Program-made: the position numbers and the translations under genes
From: Burkholderiaceae bacterium
GTDB taxonomy: Bacteria > Pseudomonadota > Gammaproteobacteria > Burkholderiales > Burkholderiaceae_E
Direction: 5' to 3'
Length of the DNA stretch: 34,100 nucleotides
NCBI GenBank assembly: GCA_024637395.1
Contig: JAGXFG010000074.1
Span: 1-34,100 of the forward strand
Shown: piece by piece, positions 11,093-27,896 of the stretch
Layout of the letters: every line of letters starts with the position of its first letter
Numbering within the stretch: position 1 is the first letter of the stretch
Notes under the pieces: generated by a model
The model's input: the letters and a program-made list of their open reading frames with translations, nothing else
Told to the model about the DNA's origin: nothing
Database searches by the model: none

Positions 11093-11613
11093 GTTGGCTC
11101 CGTTTCCTGTTTGGTTCCGAGCAGGTCCTTCGCTCGCGCCTGAGCAGCTGCACCCAAGGGAGGCTGCACCGACCCTTTTGGACGGCGCGCAAGGTTGCGC
11201 ATTAACACGATAATTCCCAGCAACAAGAGAAGCGCCGGGCCCGACCACAACAGCACCGTCTTCGCCTTCAGGGGCGGGCGGTACAGCACGAAGTCGCCAT
11301 AGCGAGCGACCACGTACTCGATCACTTCGGTATCGCTGGCGCCGGCTCGCATCTTGATGCGGATTTCTTCCCGCATGTCGGCCGCCAGTTCGGCGGCCGA
11401 ATCGGCCAACGTCTGGTTCTGGCAGACCAGGCAGCGCATTTCGCCAGCGAGATTCATCATGCGTTGCTCCAATGCCGGATCGTCGGACGCGGGCAACGCC
11501 TCCTTGGCGAATCCGGTGACCGGAGTCAGCGCCACGAGTGCCGCCGCGAACAGAATGCGGAGCGCTTTGCCGGCCCGGCCCAACCGCCTGCTTGCAATGC
11601 CGCCGGTATTCAT
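11089..11613 (-). CDS. ccmH: Cytochrome c maturation protein CcmH
   Basis: A 174-residue periplasmic thioredoxin-like subunit of the haem lyase. Residues 17-36 form a signal or membrane segment. The redox motif is LVCQNQ with Cys61 and Cys64. A membrane helix lies at about 120-140, followed by a short cytoplasmic tail. CcmH reduces the CxxCH of apocytochrome c before haem attachment and is itself reduced by CcmG. It is the short, single-domain form, with the TPR part encoded separately as ccmI. ATGA overlap with ccmF and GTGA overlap with ccmI show tight coupling. Confidence 0.93.
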   Translation of the reverse strand: MNTGGIASRRLGRAGKALRILFAAALVALTPVTGFAKEALPASDDPALEQRMMNLAGEMRCLVCQNQTLADSAAELAADMREEIRIKMRAGASDTEVIEYVVARYGDFVLYRPPLKAKTVLLWSGPALLLLLGIIVLMRNLARRPKGSVQPPLGAAAQARAKDLLGTKQETEPT

Positions 11614-13613
11614 CGCACCCCCACGGCGCCGACACCGCTGGCAATGGCCTGCGGTCGTCTTGCGGGCACTGATTCCTGCACCGCAACCCGATACCGGCGG
11701 TCAAAAACGGCAAGTACGCCGCCCAACGCCATCATCAGCCAGCCATACCAGATCCACTCCACGAACGGCTTGTAGTAGACGCGCATAATCCACGTCGTCG
11801 GGTTGATCTGGTCTCCGAGGGCGACGTAAAGATCACGGGACAAGCCGCGATCGATCGCCGCCTCCGTCATGGGATTTTTCTGATCGCGGTAGGTGCGTTT
11901 CTCCGGCAACATGGTCGTCACGTTGCGGCCATCGCGCGTAACGCGAATCTCGGCGCGGGTGGCGACGTAGTTGGGGCCCCGCACCCGCGATAGGCGCTCC
12001 ATCGCGAACTGGTAGTCGCCCACATTGACGGTGTCACCCGGGCTCACGCGCACGTCCTTTTCGACTTCATAGTTCCGAACCAAGGTGGCGCCGACGATGA
12101 AGACGGCGACCCCGAGGTGCGCCAGCAACATGCCGTAGTAGCTGAGCGAATTGGTCCTGAGTTTGGCGAACAGGCTCATCCCGCCGCGCGATTGTCGCAA
12201 CCGCTCCCACAGGTCCGCCAGGCTACTGGTAACGATCCAGGTCGCGAGCAACAGTCCGAAACTCGCCCCGGCCTTCCAGCTTGCCATGGTGAACGGCAGC
12301 AGCAGTGCAGTGACCAGCGCGATGCCAAACGCCCAGCGCAGGCGCACAGCAAGATCGAGCACGGTGGCTTTCTTCCAGCGCGCCATCGGCCCGACTCCGA
12401 TGAGAAACACGATCGGAACCGTCAGCGGAATGAAGACCAGCTCGAAGTAAGGCGTTCCCACCGAAATCTTGCCGATTCCCATTGCATCGAGCACCAACGG
12501 ATACAGGGTGCCAAGCAGCACCGAACCCGCAGCGACAACCAGCATGACGTTATTGAGCAGCAGCATCGATTCCCGAGATACCTTCTCGAAACTGCCGCCC
12601 AGGCCCACCTGGCGGGCGCGGATCGCGAACAGCAGCAGCGCTCCGCCGGTGACGATACCCAGCAGCGCGAGCATGAAGACTCCGCGCCGCGGATCGGTGG
12701 CAAAGGCGTGCACCGAGGTCAGCACGCCCGAACGCACCAAAAAGGTGCCAAGCAGGCTGAAGGAAAACGCGAGAATCGCGAGGAATACGGTCCAACCCTT
12801 GAACGCGCCCCGCTTCTCGGTCACCGCCAGCGAATGGATCAGCGCCGTGCCCACCAGCCACGGAATGAAGGACGAGTTCTCGACCGGGTCCCAAAACCAC
12901 CAGCCACCCCACCCGAGCTCGTAATAGGCCCAGAAACTGCCGAGCGCCACGCCCAGCGACAGAAACATCCACGCCAGCGTGGTCCAGGGCCGCGACCACC
13001 TTGCCCAAGTCGCGTCGAGCCGACCGCTGAGCAGCGCCGCGATGGCAAAGGCAAACGCCACCGAAAAACCGACGTATCCCATGTAGAGCAAGGGGGGGTG
13101 AAGCACCATCCCGAGGTCCTGTAGAAGGGGATTCAGGTCACGCCCTTGCGTCGCGGCGGGAATCAGCCGCTCGAACGGGTTCGAGGTGGCGATCAGGAAG
13201 GTCAGAAAGCCCACGCACGTCAGTCCCATCACCCCAGTGACCCGGGCAAGGAGGTCCTCGGGCAGGTGGCGGCTGAAACGGGTCACCGCGACCGACCAAC
13301 CGGCGAGGATCAGTACCCAGAGCAGCATCGAGCCCTCGTGCCCGCCCCAGACCGCGGCAATGCGGTACTGCAGCGGTAGTTGCGTGCTCGAATTCGCTGC
13401 CACGTAGGACACCGAGAAATCATTGCTGACGAAGGCCTGTATCAGCGCGCCAAAGGCAATCGCGAGGAACAGCAATTGGCCGGCTGCCGCCGTGCTGCCG
13501 GCGCGCATCCAGGCTTGGTTGCCACGCGCGGCGCCAATCAAAGGAAAGGCACTCTGTGCCAGGGCAAGAACGAGCGCGAGGATCAGGGCGAGATGTCCGA
13601 GTTCGGGAATCAT
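11610..13613 (-). CDS. ccmF: Cytochrome c haem lyase subunit CcmF
   Basis: A 667-residue polytopic membrane protein with the tryptophan-rich haem-binding motif WGGWWFWDPVENSSFIPWL, the conserved WGGHEGSMLLWVLILAGW segment and histidines such as those in HPPLLYMGYVGF. CcmF forms with CcmH and CcmI the system I module that attaches haem to apocytochrome c in the periplasm. Length is normal for the family. Start ATG at 13613; its stop overlaps the ccmH start (ATGA). The haem-delivery genes ccmA to ccmE are not in this window, so they must lie elsewhere in the genome. Confidence 0.96.
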   Translation of the reverse strand: MIPELGHLALILALVLALAQSAFPLIGAARGNQAWMRAGSTAAAGQLLFLAIAFGALIQAFVSNDFSVSYVAANSSTQLPLQYRIAAVWGGHEGSMLLWVLILAGWSVAVTRFSRHLPEDLLARVTGVMGLTCVGFLTFLIATSNPFERLIPAATQGRDLNPLLQDLGMVLHPPLLYMGYVGFSVAFAFAIAALLSGRLDATWARWSRPWTTLAWMFLSLGVALGSFWAYYELGWGGWWFWDPVENSSFIPWLVGTALIHSLAVTEKRGAFKGWTVFLAILAFSFSLLGTFLVRSGVLTSVHAFATDPRRGVFMLALLGIVTGGALLLFAIRARQVGLGGSFEKVSRESMLLLNNVMLVVAAGSVLLGTLYPLVLDAMGIGKISVGTPYFELVFIPLTVPIVFLIGVGPMARWKKATVLDLAVRLRWAFGIALVTALLLPFTMASWKAGASFGLLLATWIVTSSLADLWERLRQSRGGMSLFAKLRTNSLSYYGMLLAHLGVAVFIVGATLVRNYEVEKDVRVSPGDTVNVGDYQFAMERLSRVRGPNYVATRAEIRVTRDGRNVTTMLPEKRTYRDQKNPMTEAAIDRGLSRDLYVALGDQINPTTWIMRVYYKPFVEWIWYGWLMMALGGVLAVFDRRYRVAVQESVPARRPQAIASGVGAVGVR

Positions 13614-17838: not shown

Positions 17839-17913
17839 TTCGTCGCCTTGGAACCATGGGGCGCCGGGCGCGGAGGGATAATTGGAGTTTTCGGCGGCCG
17901 ACCGAGGATCCCG

Positions 17914-20166
17914 ATGGACGGAAACTTCGCTCTCGCGCGTGCCAGAGGCGACTCGGGTTTCGCAGCGCGCGTTGCCTGCGCTCTTGACTGGCAACGGCTG
18001 GCGGCAGTGGCGCTGTTGACTCTGCTGCTCTCCCTTGGCGCGCTGACCAGCCCCTCCCTGGCGGACTTTCTCTCGCCGACTGAGATTGCGCTGGCCTGGC
18101 TGGAGCATGTTCTCGAACTCGCGGTCATCGCGGCGCTGCTCCTGGTGGCCTTCACCGTCACCGAGCGCGTGTTGCCGCGCAACATCCCGCTGCGGCTTGG
18201 CCTGATCTCTGCTTTGCTGCTCGTTCTCTCGTTCGCCTTGGCCGTGCTGCTGCATGCCTACTACGCTCAGGGGTTCGCGCACCTACCGCCGGCGCTGCGC
18301 ATCCTCGCCGATTCGCTGCGCTGGGGCCTGCCGGCGGTGTTCCTGGCCTTGATTGCCGATGCGCACCAGCTCGCCCTGCGCGCCGATTCCGCCGCGCACG
18401 CCGCGGAACTCGCGCGCGCGCAATTGCAGCAGGGCGAGTCCCAGCAACAACTTGCGCTGCTGCAGGCCCAGATTGAGCCGCATTTTCTGTTCAACACCTT
18501 GGGCAATGTCCGCCGCCTCTATCGCACCCAGGCGCCGGCTGGCGCCGCGGCGATTGACAGTCTCATGCGCTACCTGCACATGGCGTTGCCGCAGTTGCGC
18601 CGCCGCCGTGCCAGCCTGCGTGACGAAATCGCCCTGGTGCGCGCCTACCTCGATCTTTTTCAGTTGCGCATGGGTTCCAAGCTGCGTTTTTCGGTCTCTG
18701 TCGCCGACGACGTCAGGGATGCGGAGTTCCCACCGATGCTGCTCGTCACGCTCGTCGAGAATGCGATCAAGCACGGGCTCGAGCCGGCTGGCGGCGGGCA
18801 CGTCGAGGTGCGAGTCCGGCGCCGGGGCAATCGGCTCGAGGCCACGGTGCTCGATGACGGCGCGGGTTTTGCCGCGGCGGCGGGCAGCGGCACGGGAGTC
18901 GGTCTGGTCAACATCAGGAGCCAGCTTGCGGCGCGCTACGCCCGGCGTGGGCAGCTGCACTTGGAGGCGCGCGCGCCACGCGGCGCCAGTGCAACGATCG
19001 TTATCCCGCTGCGCCGCGCGCAGACCGAACGCGGCGCCCAAGCGGCGGACCCTGGTAGCAACTCGGCCACTACGCTGGCCGCGGTGCCAGCCCCGCCCGC
19101 CGAGGCGCCAGCGGCGCAGCAAGTTGACGGCCTGGCGCGCTGGCTGCACACCCACGGCGGCGCGGTGGCGATGGCGGGCCTGCTCTCTTTCGCGGCACCG
19201 GTCACGTACTTCACGGGGGCGCTGAGCGTGATGGGCGACGCGGGAGCGCTCAATGTGGCGCGACTCGGCATGTGGTGGGTACTCTATGGCGCTGCGCTCT
19301 GGTTCCTGCTGCTGATCGCTGGCTATGGCTGCGGGCGCTTGGCGCCACGCGTCGGACACGGCGCCCTTGGGTTGGCGTGGCTGCTCGCCGCTGTCGCAGC
19401 TGCGGCCCTCACGAGCATGTTGACCGCGGGGCGCGCGACGCTGCTCATTGAGCAGGGCCTGGTGAACAACCAGGCCACGATGCACCTGCACGGATTTGTC
19501 GTTTCCCTCGTCATGGCGTTGCTCTACTTCGCGCATCTGCGCCGCAGCCGTGCACATGAACAGGCAGCGGCCCGTCTCGCCACCGCCCAGCGGGCGCAGC
19601 GCCTCACCCACCGCCGCATCGCTGAGGCGCGCCTGCAGGAAATGCAGGCGCGCGTCGATCCGCAGGGACTCTTCCAGATGCTGGCAACGGCGCGTGGCCT
19701 CTACGACCGGGACGCAGCGCAAGGCGAACGTTTCCTCGATGAGGTGATTCTCTTTCTGCGCGCCGCGCTGCCGCGCCTGCGCAACGCTTCGTCGAGTCTG
19801 CTGCGTGAGGTCGAGCTGGCCCGCGCCTTCGTCAACCTGCACGCCATGGCCGGCACGGCGGGGCCGGGCATGACGACGGATGTCGCGCCCGATGCACTGC
19901 ACGCACGATTTCCACCTGGCGTGCTGCTACCGCTGCTTGATTCCGCCGTGACCGGCAATGGTGCGGGTCCGTGCCAACTCAGCGCAAGCTGCTCGAGCGC
20001 CGGCTGCCAGCTGGTACTTGCGCTGGCGACCGCCCCCTCGGCCCAGTCTGTCGTGCGCGTCCGCTCCCTGCTTGCGGAGCTATATGGGAAGACAGGACGA
20101 CTGGAAATTGTCGGGCACGACGGCGCAATCAAGGTCATCGTGAAGGTACCCTATGAACTCGCCTGA
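17914..20166 (+). CDS. Tandem LytS-type sensor histidine kinase with degenerate second module
   Basis: A 750-residue protein built from two copies of the same plan. Module 1 (1-370): membrane helices at about 29-150, coiled region, phosphorylation box QIEPHFLFNTLGNVRRL (His190), N-box LVENAIKHG (Asn283), and G-boxes DDGAGF and GTGVGLVNI. This is a complete LytS/YehU-like kinase. After an Ala/Pro-rich linker (371-405), module 2 repeats helices (about 414-541), then a box VDPQGLFQML in which the phospho-acceptor His is Gln584, an N-box reduced to LLDSAV, and no G-boxes, so it should not bind ATP or phosphorylate. This looks like a kinase fused to its own pseudokinase. The ATG at 17914 with GAGGAT upstream is preferred over a TTG at 17848. 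The last 14 bases overlap the response-regulator gene. The signal sensed is unknown. Confidence 0.88.
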   Translation: MDGNFALARARGDSGFAARVACALDWQRLAAVALLTLLLSLGALTSPSLADFLSPTEIALAWLEHVLELAVIAALLLVAFTVTERVLPRNIPLRLGLISALLLVLSFALAVLLHAYYAQGFAHLPPALRILADSLRWGLPAVFLALIADAHQLALRADSAAHAAELARAQLQQGESQQQLALLQAQIEPHFLFNTLGNVRRLYRTQAPAGAAAIDSLMRYLHMALPQLRRRRASLRDEIALVRAYLDLFQLRMGSKLRFSVSVADDVRDAEFPPMLLVTLVENAIKHGLEPAGGGHVEVRVRRRGNRLEATVLDDGAGFAAAAGSGTGVGLVNIRSQLAARYARRGQLHLEARAPRGASATIVIPLRRAQTERGAQAADPGSNSATTLAAVPAPPAEAPAAQQVDGLARWLHTHGGAVAMAGLLSFAAPVTYFTGALSVMGDAGALNVARLGMWWVLYGAALWFLLLIAGYGCGRLAPRVGHGALGLAWLLAAVAAAALTSMLTAGRATLLIEQGLVNNQATMHLHGFVVSLVMALLYFAHLRRSRAHEQAAARLATAQRAQRLTHRRIAEARLQEMQARVDPQGLFQMLATARGLYDRDAAQGERFLDEVILFLRAALPRLRNASSSLLREVELARAFVNLHAMAGTAGPGMTTDVAPDALHARFPPGVLLPLLDSAVTGNGAGPCQLSASCSSAGCQLVLALATAPSAQSVVRVRSLLAELYGKTGRLEIVGHDGAIKVIVKVPYELA

Positions 20167-20929
20167 AACTCCAGCTAGATCCGCGCCCACGGCAATCGTC
20201 GCCGAGGACGAACCGCTGCTGTGCGAAGAGCTGGCCGAACTGCTGCGCTCTTTGTGGCCGCAACTCGAGATCGTGGCGATGGTAGCCGACGGCGTTGCCG
20301 CGCTCAATGCGATCGACGAGCATCGTCCCGATGTGGCGTTCCTTGACATCCACATGCCGCTGCTCACCGGAATCGAGGTGGCGCGCCAGATCGCGGGGCG
20401 ATGTCATGTCGTTTTCATTACGTCCTACGACGAGCACGCGCTCGAGGCCTTCGAAGCCGGGGCAATGGACTATGTGCTCAAGCCACCCGATGCCGCTCGG
20501 CTCGCCGCGACCATCCAGCGGCTCAAGACGAGACTGCAGCAGCCGCCCAGCGATCTGAGCAGGGCGCTGCGCGATCTGGTGGAGCGGGCTCCGGGGTCAC
20601 CGCGTTATCTGCAGTGGATCAATGCCTCGCGCGGCACTGTCGTGCGCCTGATCACAGTCGAGGAGATCCTCTACTTCCAGTCGGACCAGAAGTACACGCT
20701 GGTGGCCACTGCGGAAACCGAGGCCCTGATCCGCAAGACGATCAAGGAGCTTCTCAAGGAACTCGACCCGACGATGTTCTGGCAGGTACATCGCTCGACG
20801 ATCGTCAACGTGCACGCCATCGACAGCGTGCTCAGGGACGACCAGGGCAACCTGAAACTGCGCCTCAGGGAGCGGCCGGAGGCATTTCCGGTCAGCGAAC
20901 CCTATCACCACCTTTTCAAGCAGATGTGA
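20153..20929 (+). CDS. LytTR-family response regulator
   Basis: A 258-residue regulator. The receiver domain (about 14-125) has the acidic pocket AEDE, the phospho-acceptor Asp65 in VAFLDIHMPLLTG, Thr90 and Lys110 (YVLKP). The DNA-binding LytTR domain (about 155-258) has VEEILYFQSDQKYT and FWQVHRSTIVNVHAI. It is expected to be phosphorylated by His190 of the upstream kinase, whose gene it overlaps by 14 bases. LytTR regulators bind paired 9-bp direct repeats, and a candidate half-site lies at 21421-21429. AAGG upstream supports the ATG at 20153. Confidence 0.94.
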   Translation: MNSPETPARSAPTAIVAEDEPLLCEELAELLRSLWPQLEIVAMVADGVAALNAIDEHRPDVAFLDIHMPLLTGIEVARQIAGRCHVVFITSYDEHALEAFEAGAMDYVLKPPDAARLAATIQRLKTRLQQPPSDLSRALRDLVERAPGSPRYLQWINASRGTVVRLITVEEILYFQSDQKYTLVATAETEALIRKTIKELLKELDPTMFWQVHRSTIVNVHAIDSVLRDDQGNLKLRLRERPEAFPVSEPYHHLFKQM

Positions 20930-20985
20930 CGCTGCGGCACGTCGCCGACGCGCTTCTGAATCACCCTGACATGGAGGGCACTCAC

Positions 20986-21393
20986 ATGAAGAAAGAACAC
21001 TTGAAGACGCGCCGCCAGCTTCTGGCCGTGCTCACCGCGTTCGGTGTGACGCCCGAGTTGCTCGCGCAGGATGCGGTGACGTCTCATCCGCGCTCTTTCC
21101 GCATCCTGCTCGAGAACGAGCGCGTGCGGGTGCTCGAGTACAAGAACGGACTCGGGCTCGGCGTCTGCGGCCAGGGGCTGCACTATCATCCCGAGCGCGT
21201 CACCGTCGCATTGACGGAGGCCAAGGTCCGAATCGCGGACGCGCAAGGCAAGACCGTCGTGCGGGATGTCCCCGCCGGTCACGTGTTCTTTTCACCCGCG
21301 GAGACACACGCGGTGGAGAACATCGGCGGCGCGGGCACGCGCGTGTACATCATCGAACTGAAAGACCAGAACTGGCGACCCAGCACCGGCTGA
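20986..21393 (+). CDS. Exported cupin-domain protein
   Basis: A 135-residue protein with an N-terminal export signal (MKKEHLKTRRQLLAVLTAFG; the Arg-Arg could be a Tat motif) followed by a single small cupin barrel. The cupin motifs are visible as LHYHPERVTVALTEAKVRI and GHVFFSPAETHAVENIG, with His residues positioned to bind a metal. Cupins range from enzymes to binding proteins, so the reaction cannot be named. GGAGGG about 7 bases before 20986 selects that ATG over the in-frame ATG at 20971. It lies 56 bases after the response regulator, possibly in the same transcript. Confidence 0.8.
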   Translation: MKKEHLKTRRQLLAVLTAFGVTPELLAQDAVTSHPRSFRILLENERVRVLEYKNGLGLGVCGQGLHYHPERVTVALTEAKVRIADAQGKTVVRDVPAGHVFFSPAETHAVENIGGAGTRVYIIELKDQNWRPSTG

Positions 21394-21451: not shown

Positions 21452-21566
21452 CCTTGATCTTCCGCTTTCGTCGCCTGGCCCCCCACGCACCTCCGCCTGC
21501 ATCCTACTGTGAAGGCTCCGGTGCACGGGCGCCACGAGCGAAACCCTCAACAAGGAGGATCAAGAA

Positions 21567-22076
21567 ATGAACGTTTTCATCACCAACCCGTTATTCCGTC
21601 GGTGCATGGCGAGCGCGGCATTTTGCGCCCTTGCGAGCACAACTGCACTGGCTGCAACGATGAAGATCGAGGCGGTCATCGTGCCGAAGGCCGATGCCAA
21701 GCTGGAGTTCGCCGACGGCAGCAAGCGCTACCTGCTCGCCGCACAGCGGGAAGGGAGGACGGTCGGCAACGGCCCGCTCTCCAGCGCGACGGTACTCGAG
21801 TGGGGAATGCATGAGGTCAACCCGGCGGTCGGGGCAAACGCGAGCGGCTACCTGGTTTTCACCACCGCCGAAGGCGATGTCGGCTACCTCAAATACCAGT
21901 TCCGTGCGATTCCCATTCCCGGGCCTGACGGCAAGCAGCACTTCGTGGCGAACGGATTCTGGGAAGCCGCCGGAGGAACCGGCAAGCTCAAAGGCCTGCG
22001 TGGCGGCGGCACGGTGCAGATCAACCCCGCCGAGCGGCGCTGGACGCTCGAGGGCGACTTGGTCGCGAGCAACTGA
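21567..22076 (+). CDS. Exported beta-barrel-like protein, unknown function
   Basis: A 169-residue protein with a signal peptide (about 12-29, cleavage likely after TTALA). The mature part is rich in beta-strand patterns: GYLVFTTAEGDVGYLKYQFR, NGFWEAAGGTGKLKGLRGGG and NPAERRWTLEGDL. The GGTGKLKGLRGGG segment recalls small lipocalin or allene-oxide-cyclase-like barrels of the DUF3224 type, but this is resemblance only. An excellent ribosome-binding site (AAGGAGGAT, 7 bases before the ATG) suggests strong expression. It follows the two-component genes and may be their target. Confidence 0.75.
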   Translation: MNVFITNPLFRRCMASAAFCALASTTALAATMKIEAVIVPKADAKLEFADGSKRYLLAAQREGRTVGNGPLSSATVLEWGMHEVNPAVGANASGYLVFTTAEGDVGYLKYQFRAIPIPGPDGKQHFVANGFWEAAGGTGKLKGLRGGGTVQINPAERRWTLEGDLVASN

Positions 22077-22516: not shown

Positions 22517-25018
<2,502 letters not shown>

Positions 25019-25047
25019 TCACTTGCAATGCAAAGGTGTGCCACGGC

Positions 25048-26157
25048 TCAGATGCGCATTGGCATGACGACGTACTTGAAGCTCTGGTCGTCGGGAACGG
25101 TGAGCAGGGCGCTGGTGTTCGAGTCGCCCAGCTCGATCTGGATCTGCTCTGACTTCAGGTTGCCGAGCACGTCCTGGAGATAGCCGACGTTGAACCCGAT
25201 ATCGACCGGCTCGCCAACATAGTCGGCCTCCAGTTCCTCGCGGGCCTCTTCCTGCTCGGTATTGGTGATCTGCACCTGCAGCCCCTCGGTCGAGACCAAC
25301 AGGCGCACTCCCTTGAACTTGTCGCTGGTGAGGATCGACGCCCTCCCCAGCGCTCCCGCCAGCACGTCACGGCTGATCAGCAGGCGCTTGGTATAGCCGC
25401 TTGGGATGACCCGCTGGTAATCGGGAAACTTGCCCTCGATCAGCTTGGTGATCATCTCGACCTCGCCAAACGAGATCCGCAGCTGGTTCGATGCGACGTC
25501 GATCCTTACCGGTTCGTCGTTGTCACTGAGCAGGCGTTGCAGTTCCAGCACCGTCTTGCGCGGGATGATCACTTCCTGGCGGGCCAGGTTCGCCCCCGCG
25601 AGCTCGGTTTCGCAATAGGCGAGCCGGTGACCGTCGGTGGCCACGACCCGAACTGCCGAGCCATCGGTAAGGAGCATCAGGCCGTTGAGGTAGTAGCGGA
25701 TGTCCTGCTGGGCCATCGCGAAATGGACCATGTGGAACAGGCGCTTGAGTTCATTCTGCGGCAGCGTGAAGCTGGCGCCAAAGTCATCGCTCACAGCAAC
25801 CGTCGGGAAATCTTCCGCGCCCAGGGTCTGCAGTGAAAACCGGCTGCGCCCCGCGACGATCGTAGCCTTCTTGTTGCTGACCCCGATACTTACCTCGGAA
25901 CTGTCGGGAAGCGAACGCAGGATGTCGATCAACTTGCGGGCCGATACCGTGATCGCGCCGTCTTCGTTGCCAACCCCGAGTGACGCCGTGGTGCGAATCT
26001 GAATTTCGACGTCAGTCGCCAGGAAGGAAACCTCATCGCCGCTCTTGGTGAGCAGGACGTTGGCGAGGATTGGCAAGGTATGGCGGCGTTCGACTATGCC
26101 GGCAACGGTTTGCAGCGGTTTGAGAATTGCATCGCGATGTGCCTTGATCATCTGCAT
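25048..26157 (-). CDS. dnaN: DNA polymerase III beta subunit (sliding clamp)
   Basis: A 369-residue three-domain clamp protein that encircles DNA and tethers polymerase III. Recognised from ERRHTLPILANVLL near the N-terminus, GAEDFPTV, IRYYLNGLMLL, VATDGHRLAYCE, FPDYQRVIP and the C-terminal YVVMPMRI, all at the expected spacing. Normal length. Start ATG at 26157 with GGAAGGAA about 9 bases upstream; an alternative ATG two codons later is possible. It follows dnaA after a 236-base gap that holds DnaA boxes. Confidence 0.98.
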   Translation of the reverse strand: MQMIKAHRDAILKPLQTVAGIVERRHTLPILANVLLTKSGDEVSFLATDVEIQIRTTASLGVGNEDGAITVSARKLIDILRSLPDSSEVSIGVSNKKATIVAGRSRFSLQTLGAEDFPTVAVSDDFGASFTLPQNELKRLFHMVHFAMAQQDIRYYLNGLMLLTDGSAVRVVATDGHRLAYCETELAGANLARQEVIIPRKTVLELQRLLSDNDEPVRIDVASNQLRISFGEVEMITKLIEGKFPDYQRVIPSGYTKRLLISRDVLAGALGRASILTSDKFKGVRLLVSTEGLQVQITNTEQEEAREELEADYVGEPVDIGFNVGYLQDVLGNLKSEQIQIELGDSNTSALLTVPDDQSFKYVVMPMRI

Positions 26158-26204
26158 GATGTTTTATTCCTTCCTGCTGTTGTTCTCTGTACGGCGGTTA
26201 ACCC

Positions 26205-26213
26205 TGTGGATAA
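26205..26213 (-). promoter_or_regulatory. Perfect DnaA box
   Basis: Reads TTATCCACA on the minus strand, an exact match to the consensus high-affinity DnaA site, about 48 bases upstream of the dnaN start. Confidence 0.8.
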
Positions 26214-26361
26214 GACCTTCAGACTAAGCCCTGCGCTTGCATTGAAACCAATTTTGCCTTGTGGACATAGTGTCCTGGGACAGTGGACTGTTTGGGCAAC
26301 TTTCTGCCTTCCCGACAACTGCCGTCTCTTGTCCCGAGGTTCTTGGGGTGTCATCACGCCT

Positions 26362-26370
26362 CTATACACA
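26362..26370 (+). promoter_or_regulatory. Near-consensus DnaA box
   Basis: CTATACACA differs from the consensus TTATNCACA only at the first base. It is 24 bases beyond the dnaA stop codon. Confidence 0.45.
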
Positions 26371-26393
26371 AGGTTGTCCGACCATTTCACCGC

Positions 26394-27815
26394 TCAGCCC
26401 CGCAGAGTCTGTTCGAGCACGTGGAGCTGGCGGTTCCACTCCGGGTCGTGCTGGCGCAACTCGGCGATCCTCTTGACCGCATGCATCACCGTGGTGTGGT
26501 CGCGGCCACCAAACGCCTCGCCGATCTCCGGAAAGCTCTTCTGGGTGAACTCCTTGGCGAAGTACATAGCCACCTGGCGCGAGCGGGCGATATGGGCCGG
26601 CCGGCGCTTGGAGTACATGTCGGCCACCTTGATCTGGAAAAATTCGGCCACGGTGCGCTGAATTGCGTCGATCGAGACTGGCGCGCGGTTGAGTTCGAGC
26701 AGGTCCTTGAGGGCCTCGCGGGCCAACTCGGCGCTGATCGGCTTCTCGCGAAAGCGCGCGAACGCGATGACCCGCAGCAACGCCCCTTCGAGTTCCCGAA
26801 CGTTGGACCTGAGGTGCTTGGCGATGAAGAAGGCAGCGTCATCCGGAAGCACGACGCCGCTGACCTCGGCTTTCTTGAGCAGGATCGCGACCCTCATCTC
26901 GAGCTCCGGCGGCTCGATCTCGACGATCAGCCCCGATCCCAAGCGCGACACCAACCGGTCCTTGAACTCGCTCAGTTCCCGCGGGTAGGTATCGCTGGTG
27001 ATTATCAGCTGCTTGCGGGCCGAGAACATTGCCTCGAAGGTATAGAAGAACTCTTCCTGGGTGCGTTCCTTGCCGCCCAGGAACTGGATATCGTCGATCA
27101 GCAACAGGTCCAGCGACTGGTACTTGCGCTTGAATTCCTGCGGCGTCTTGCGCTGGATCGCCCGGACCATCTCGTCAAAGTATTCCTGCGCGTGAACGTA
27201 GAGCACCCGGGCGTTGGGCGCCCTGGCGACGATCGCGTTGCCGACCGCATGGATCAGGTGGGTCTTGCCCAGGCCGACCCCGCCGTAGAGAAAGAGCGGG
27301 TTGTAAGCCCGGCCGGGGCGTTCTGCGACCTGCAGCATGGCCGAGATCGCAATCTGGTTGGCCTTGCCGTGGACGAAATTATCGAATGAAAGGTCGGGAC
27401 GCAGCCTGGTGCGGGTGTCCGGGGCGTAGTCGGTATCCAGCGCGGCGAAGGGATTGTGATCACTTTCGCCGGTCTCGGCTGCGGCCGGGAGTTCTTCATG
27501 GTCAGCGCGTTCTTCGCGCCGCGCCTGGCGCGGCGGCGCGCCGCGCGCCTTGGTCCCGGTGCCGCCTTGCTGGCACAGCTCGATGCTGACCGCCAGGGCG
27601 TCGCTGCCGAAAACCTCGCTGGCGATCTCGACGATCCGCGTCTCGAACTGGGCGCGCACGAAATTGAGTTTTAGTGAGCTGGGAACTCCCAGGCGCAGCA
27701 GATGTGCGTCGTCATCGAAGCCGAGGAAAATGAGCGGCTTGATCCAGGGTATGAATTGAGCTGCGGGCAACTCGGCTTCCAGCCGGGCCACGCAACTGTG
27801 CCAGCGTTCGAGCAT
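26394..27815 (-). CDS. dnaA: Chromosomal replication initiator DnaA
   Basis: A 473-residue AAA+ initiator. Domain I (about 1-85) starts [24 protein letters not shown], and a variable Gly/Ala/Glu-rich domain II follows. The AAA+ domain has Walker [11 protein letters not shown], Walker [22 protein letters not shown] and the arginine-rich [11 protein letters not shown]. Domain IV has the DNA-binding signature [14 protein letters not shown] and [15 protein letters not shown]. The ATG at 27815 gives the family N-terminus; a GTG at 27881 would add 22 unrelated residues. There is no strong ribosome-binding site. A promoter (TTGGCC, 18 bases, TAGAAT) lies about 85 bases upstream, divergent from the rpmH promoter. 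Confidence 0.98.
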
Positions 27816-27896
27816 TAGTGAGCCAGACGAAAAGGGGCGCAAAAGCCAACCAGCACTCAAAAAACCGCGCTTGCCGACCACCTACATTAACCCCCC

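Follow-up and report, generated by a model that had tools for sequence, protein, structure and literature searches.

The window, the whole 34,100-nucleotide stretch of Burkholderiaceae DNA analyzed here, encodes a 750-residue protein, P0001, in which a sensor histidine kinase is followed in the same chain by a second, noncatalytic kinase-like module; genes for a LytTR response regulator and a small cupin-like protein come next (Table 1). Throughout, K denotes the active LytS-type sensor kinase, P the LytS-type noncatalytic module or protein, and a locus the set of K, P, and LytTR regulator. A longer P0001, read from an alternative TTG start at 17848, is possible. The regulator start overlaps the kinase stop, and the best NCBIfam model for the regulator is BtsR, matched below that model's cut-off. 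The cupin-like protein matches no Pfam family above cut-off. Elsewhere, the window carries a putative open frame at 21513–22073 (no Pfam family over cut-off; relatives in five other loci of clade A, defined below) and a CcmF/NrfE heme lyase gene at 11610–13613, with redoxin and DUF1573 genes between the latter and the kinase. On the minus strand, gyrB, dnaN, and dnaA occupy 22517–27881 and place the kinase system near a likely replication origin.

Table 1. Features of the kinase–pseudokinase locus, with positions in the window and the evidence for each
Feature	Position	Strand	Evidence
Fused kinase–pseudokinase P0001, 750 aa	17914..20166	+	ORF; ATG 17914 with GAGG upstream
K module, four-helix membrane region, residues 26–148	17989..18357	+	Hydropathy, AlphaFold-model helices
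K module, DHp (His_kinase PF06580); His190 codon 18481–18483	18409..18684	+	Pfam, motif position
K module, HATPase_c with N, G1, and G2 boxes, residues 276–367	18739..19014	+	Pfam, motif position
Low-confidence linker, residues 368–406	19015..19131	+	pLDDT < 50 over 368–404; alignment, junctions
P module, second four-helix membrane region (modeled), residues 407–543	19132..19542	+	AlphaFold models
P module, DHp-like region; Gln584 codon 19663–19665 replacing His	19588..19851	+	Profile alignment, motif position
P module, shortened, degenerate CA fold (predicted) without N, G1, and G2 boxes	19852..20163	+	AlphaFold model, PDB match, Pfam
LytTR response regulator (receiver + LytTR)	20153..20929	+	Domain matches; acceptor Asp in FLDIHMP
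Small cupin-like protein, twin-Arg type N terminus (our reading)	20971..21393	+	Weak cupin match, PDB sequences, E 0.011

Module 1 is a LytS-type sensor histidine kinase, with a membrane region, a PF06580 DHp domain bearing the acceptor histidine, and both N and G boxes: EPHFLFN starts at residue 188 (His190), LVENAIKHG at 280 (Asn283), DDGAGF at 314, and GTGVGLVNI at 326. Module 2 lacks the catalytic features of a LytS kinase: VDPQGLF, starting at 581, puts Gln584 at the acceptor position, LLDSAV starts at 674, and the N and G boxes are absent. In Pfam, P0001 matches PF06580 in two stretches and HATPase_c once, over residues 276–367. An earlier note on this DNA had given the reading frame and all of its motifs and residue numbers exactly, to the residue; it had called module 1 catalytically complete, which the motifs and the HATPase_c match confirm, and had described module 2 as carrying Gln584 and lacking G boxes, to which a missing N box can be added. 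Hydropathy backs three of the four helices of the P membrane region at the threshold used. Four plus four membrane helices, as modeled, would let both kinase-fold parts be cytoplasmic in one chain, as a fusion requires. By alignment and junctions, the linker between the modules is the site of the K stop and the P start in relatives in which the two are split.

Taken alone, module 2 of the window scores 21.8 bits against PF06580, below the 25.2 cut-off, and matches no ATPase family of Pfam up to E 10. Its likeness to module 1 nonetheless exceeds chance, since a module-2 profile retrieves module 1 of P0001 at E 1.3e-21. An AlphaFold model of module 2 (pLDDT 75, pTM 0.44, 7 sequences) has membrane-type helices, a DHp hairpin entered from a long helix, and a short alpha/beta domain; among PDB structures it comes closest to 6swk, the kinase domain of GanS (Foldseek E 9.3e-7; VIA Z 14.9, 166 aligned, rmsd 4.5), and DivL 4q20 is among the others (Z 12.2, 117 aligned, rmsd 2.5). 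The full-length P0001 model (pLDDT 63, pTM 0.38, 10 rows) again matches 6swk best, via module 1 (Z 18.0, 167 aligned, rmsd 5.1). Because these alignments are only 7 and 10 rows deep, details of the models are untrustworthy. Module 2 is predicted to keep the DHp–CA kinase fold, with 6swk as best match, and the outcome that the earlier note had named as fatal to its reading, a second half that is not a kinase fold, did not materialize. On the combined evidence of fold, PF06580 likeness, profile match, and the trees described below, module 2 shares descent with LytS-type kinases.

Nineteen full-length P genes were found in 16 genomes of the order, the window's included, and K adjoins P or is fused to it in all 18 loci with K in view. 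The loci fall into clades A (eight: the window, SG8_41, Ww204, G488, G002, G016, BroJett031, and R1_Bin), B (nine: Ww204, G519, G520, G496, G486, G497, G499, G488, and G448), and C (two: G499 and G485). A first search of genome contigs with P0001 as query returned no relatives. The window's own genome and 60 relatives (61 in all) yielded a fused homologue in G016, at 60% identity, and two separate, overlapping genes for K and P in G002, which belongs to the window's genus; the system was not found in two of the three other genomes of that genus. G016 (CP070753) is a single-contig genome of 57% completeness in which frameshifts may be common. A module-2 alignment search of genome contigs gave six loci, two of them those of G002 and G016, all in MAG records named Betaproteobacteria, Burkholderiales, or Burkholderiaceae. 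Across the window's family, a close module 2 occurs in 3 of 74 genomes (G000, G002, and G016). The Ww204 genome holds a second, more distant K–P pair, of which G448 carries a relative; in the family of G448, P is present in 12 of 67 genomes (clade B, nine; clade A, four; divergent clade C, two). Among 399 sampled genomes of the order, P was recognized in four (G000 and G448, plus G057 and G212 by hand), and when 114 genomes sampled from the class were searched, the top two matches outside the window's own genome were kinases with the histidine. A plasmid search returned 189 records, all below 60% identity and none spanning 80% of the query. The rarity of P is uncertain, since ordinary kinases score equally well and divergent P may be missed.

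EPHFLFN is present in K of all 18 loci in view. The acceptor site of P holds Gln in 15 of the 19 and Arg in four (BroJett031, R1_Bin, Ww204-B, and G488-B); His occurs in none, which answers the earlier question of whether module 2 always lacks it. No full-length P (0/19) matches an ATPase family in Pfam up to E 10, and HATPase_c scores above cut-off in all eight K tested. Across 83 LytS-type segments compared, 75 keep both the His and the N-box Asn, the other eight being seven P and one fragment. A GxGxG string does occur in three P (the window's, Ww204-A, and G520), neither as GxGxGL nor at the G2 site. The PF06580 cut-off is exceeded by 18 of the 19, the window's P being the sole exception. 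We rejected the possibility that P is an ordinary kinase whose His codon carries an error, on the absence of both His and any ATPase match from all 19. Lacking an acceptor His and a recognizable ATP site across homologues and keeping the kinase fold, which is predicted for the window's P only among the 19, P has the makeup of a pseudo-histidine kinase.

A different departure from the usual motif set is seen in L002 (G000:C114), L045–L048, and others, which keep RPHFLFNS and the N box and show NP at the position of the G1 box of other kinases. We take the kinases of L002 and L045–L048 to be AlgZ-like, and from their motifs such kinases appear to be a differently degenerate LytS type. In each of three genomes from another family of the order (G221, G316, and G401), three LytS kinase/LytTR pairs lie within ~10 kb (L110, L111, and L112).

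P is a gene of its own in 15 of the 19 loci and is fused to K in four (the window, G016, BroJett031, and R1_Bin). The split loci comprise 13 with K on the same contig, G499-B, which extends over two overlapping contigs, and G486, in which K lies off the contig and a stop codon closes the P frame ahead of P. All 17 loci with K on the contig have the order K–P–regulator; in the eighteenth, G499-B, K and then P stand on another contig, the end of which overlaps with the fragment of P. The regulator follows P in every locus (19/19), always with the phospho-Asp motif FLD. In the 13 split loci measured, the nearest in-frame P start lies at −4 nt from the K stop in eight, −7 in two, +9 in two, and +2 in one, a choice of start that favors small gaps; the spacing is consistent with coupled translation. 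The cupin-like gene stands next after the regulator in all 10 clade A and C loci, at 51–75% identity to the window's, and was not matched in the nine clade B loci; it is a candidate target of the regulator. Clade B triplets (L186, L188, L190, and L191) have a common run of open frames upstream of K, and none of the four L188 frames tested had a Pfam family above cut-off.

Half of the clade A loci (4/8) are fused, and the spacing of K and P is nearly constant, at 1152–1182 nt, in all eight; in two relatives, a single in-frame stop parts K from P. BroJett031 and R1_Bin share their fusion at 94–97% identity. All clade B and C loci are split. In a joint K+P+regulator tree of clades A and C (10 rows), which is weakly resolved, the fused state corresponds to three changes among the A rows. 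Given these three changes and the split state of B and C, the split pair is most likely ancestral, and fusion perhaps occurred up to three times. Whether the tandem form is conserved, as the earlier note had asked, has a divided answer: It recurs within clade A, but most P are separate genes. A one-off fusion or frameshift was rejected on the same counts of fused loci and changes, and the separate, unrelated genes that the note had named as a refutation turned out to be often separate but adjacent and related. That the window's fusion is a sequencing or assembly error joining adjacent genes is extremely unlikely: The window genome is a 131-contig draft, a lone in-frame stop is all that separates K from P in two relatives, and the fused single-contig relative G016 has low completeness, but the four fused loci come from separate assemblies and two of them share the fusion.

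G057 and G212 each have a kinase that falls within the K clade and adjoins a short P-like protein; these proteins, of 235 and 253 residues, keep the membrane region and the DHp hairpin and end before the CA domain, with VDPDKLSATL and VDPELLFDTL, respectively, replacing the His motif. For each, the P profile outscores the K profile (86.8 vs 45.5 and 56.3 vs 37.1 bits); neither protein reaches the PF06580 cut-off, and neither matches an ATPase family up to E 10. A LytTR regulator lies beside each, the gene order in G212 being regulator, K, P. Against the 399 genomes of the order, the G212 and G057 proteins (E 1e-12 and 1e-10) retrieved only themselves, apart from one match of the former, to the P of G448 (E 6.7e-13). 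These two CA-less P are excluded from the count of 19.

In a 95-row tree, which retained five AlgZ-type rows, the 19 P group together in a clade of their own (SH-aLRT 98); a second clade (SH-aLRT 85) unites the K rows with the G057 and G212 kinases and three duplicate rows. An 82-row tree, a quick one with SH-aLRT as its only support, omitted the incomplete P of G499-B, all AlgZ-type rows, and seven duplicate or partial rows; it again recovers one clade of 18 P (98) and one of 17 K with the G057 and G212 kinases (92), and the 45 other kinases all fall outside the latter. The other kinases were picked by likeness to P0001 or P and are an uneven sample, and the P branches are long, so that long-branch attraction may help gather the P clade. 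In both trees, K and P alike divide into B versus C+A. Because K and P are separate old clades with matching subdivisions, the pair is older than the fusion, and internal duplication within the chain was rejected. The earlier description of a sensor duplicated within one chain stands insofar as a kinase and an inactive kinase-fold module share one chain; their origin is better read as the joining of two genes, kinase and pseudokinase, that had long been a pair. Over 17 loci, distances among K track those among P (r 0.956), a correlation that needs nothing beyond shared descent, as that between K and regulator equals it (r 0.958).

Over the kinase-core part of six pairs (Nei–Gojobori), dN/dS is 0.13–0.30 for K, 0.20–0.59 for P, and 0.06–0.15 for the regulator, with some linker included in the fused K rows and dS near or above 1 in several comparisons. 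P is under purifying selection, with dN/dS below 0.6 in all six pairs (the maximum, 0.59, in one), and it evolves faster than K. That module 2 is a functionless, decaying duplicate is very unlikely. Its lost catalytic motifs, its faster evolution, and the complete loss of CA in two relatives lean toward decay, but reading frame, gene order, and DHp are retained over deep divergence in 19 loci, and P is one old clade with dN/dS below that bound in each of the six pairs. Mean identity among clade A P is 0.67 for the membrane region (TM), 0.69 for the DHp, and 0.56 for the CA, the lowest; among clade B P, it is 0.25 for the TM, the lowest (0.33 for the TM of clade B K), 0.62 for the DHp, and 0.42 for the CA. 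The DHp is the best conserved P region in both clades, which together with the CA-less relatives points to it as the working part of P. The fast-changing membrane region of clade B P may reflect different signals or weak constraint.

Building on the observed anatomy, motif loss, conservation, linkage, and purifying selection and on the predicted fold, we consider the window protein to be, probably, the one-chain form of a conserved three-part system: K, a LytTR regulator, and P as a regulatory subunit dedicated to K and paired with it. Constant adjacency, coupled starts, and repeated fusion argue that P is a physical partner of K. P would pair with K through the DHp/coiled-coil and the membrane helices, add a second sensory bundle, and set the kinase/phosphatase balance of K; phosphorylation of the regulator would fall to K alone, and the regulator may in turn switch the cupin-like gene that follows. 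The K–P contact and its DHp route, the direction of the effect, the signal, and the targets are inferred. Because P lacks an acceptor His, a 1:1 K–P heterodimer could only autophosphorylate in cis, on K. The earlier note had suggested a built-in allosteric partner or second sensor; of the explanations considered, a built-in regulatory partner accounts best for the data, and its allosteric action is something we infer. Against this reading, the membrane part, the proposed sensing region, is the least conserved part of clade B P, the distribution is patchy, and P outpaces K in evolution.

A pseudo-histidine kinase modulating a kinase is already known. DivL of Caulobacter is not known to be encoded together with its kinase, retS of Pseudomonas is unlinked to gacS, and RocA, the accessory pseudokinase of CovS, sits at a separate locus and belongs to a kinase family different from that of P. 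In RetS–GacS, a second histidine kinase modulates a kinase through direct kinase-region contact; RetS is a hybrid kinase that also homodimerizes and, unlike P of the window, is not fused to its kinase. By analogy, the RetS–GacS co-complex offers a structural precedent for K–P. RocA, a pseudokinase-type protein, tunes the phosphatase activity of a sensor kinase, as proposed for P. BtsS/BtsR and LytSR pair a LytS-type kinase with a LytTR regulator, as in the window, but are described as having one kinase and no P subunit. A ChrS pseudokinase variant of Corynebacterium with a damaged CA still affects signaling, through HrrS; it is a laboratory-evolved mutant, unlike the natural P, and native ChrS and HrrS heterodimerize, whereas truncated ChrS gave no significant heterodimer (PMC9491836).

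The nearest published model is FasB–FasC–FasA of group A Streptococcus, which likewise has two neighboring membrane sensor-kinase genes and one regulator; two-hybrid data there indicate FasB–FasC heterodimers, not homodimers, in a model in which the two heterodimerize and the kinase domain of one partner is dispensable (PMC12675982). K–P loci resemble it in gene order and motif loss, with two adjacent kinase-type genes, one of them noncatalytic, and one regulator. FasC, however, keeps a likely acceptor, His246, that P lacks, the membrane part of FasB is dispensable, and FasB and FasC are separate proteins (PMC12675982). K:K and P:P homodimers lying side by side, with P as a second sensor via membrane contacts or as a regulator holder and with no mixed DHp bundles, are an unlikely alternative: A membrane region and a DHp are present in each half, and the data fit homodimers and heterodimers alike, but FasB and FasC are modeled as pairing through their DHp domains (PMC12675982), RetS has been solved bound to the GacS DHp (7n0e), and the DHp is the part of P most conserved in both clades.

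DivL shares with P a histidine-kinase fold and a replaced acceptor His and, as proposed for P, serves regulation without kinase activity; its N and G boxes are kept, and it reads DivK~P (PMC4211667). In P the ATP-site motifs are gone, and its gene lies with that of its kinase. P might work in reverse, as DivL does, its kinase fold docking the LytTR regulator, reading the regulator's phosphorylation, and feeding back to K. We regard this as quite improbable. The DHp, the regulator-docking region in kinases, is kept in P, the PDB matches of P include DivL itself (4q20), and DivL senses phosphorylated DivK through its kinase fold, but DivL, its Tyr aside, retains the H, N, G1, F, and G2 boxes (PMC4211667), P has lost these boxes, and two P relatives have no CA domain at all.

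The preferred reading, P as a dedicated subunit pairing with K, finds no direct counterpart in the open-access literature searched: Neither a pseudokinase of LytS type nor a fusion of a histidine kinase with a pseudokinase turned up there, and the earlier statement that no described example of the arrangement was known holds for that literature. As far as these searches reach, novelty lies in the one-chain form, in the LytS-type subunit dedicated to K, and in the CA-less series.

More broadly, and tentatively, since we hold the proposal to be about evenly balanced with a slight lean against, the Burkholderiales may possess an ancient class of sensor kinases that are obligately two-subunit and have one catalytic arm, a LytS-type K and a co-encoded dedicated P, in which P has gone stepwise from a dead kinase (Gln/Arg at the acceptor site) to a membrane–DHp half without CA (Asp/Glu) and has been joined to K up to three times. 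If so, the fused form would be a natural single-chain kinase–pseudokinase histidine kinase that, as a heterodimer, forces autophosphorylation in cis. The K–P system bears on whether histidine kinases can be true heterodimers with one catalytic arm. Natural split, fused, and CA-less versions of one system make cis versus trans phosphorylation directly testable, along with the role of the second membrane bundle and the origin of a pseudokinase from a kinase pair. For annotation, a PF06580 match next to a kinase and a LytTR regulator may mark a noncatalytic subunit, which calls for caution before a second kinase is assigned.
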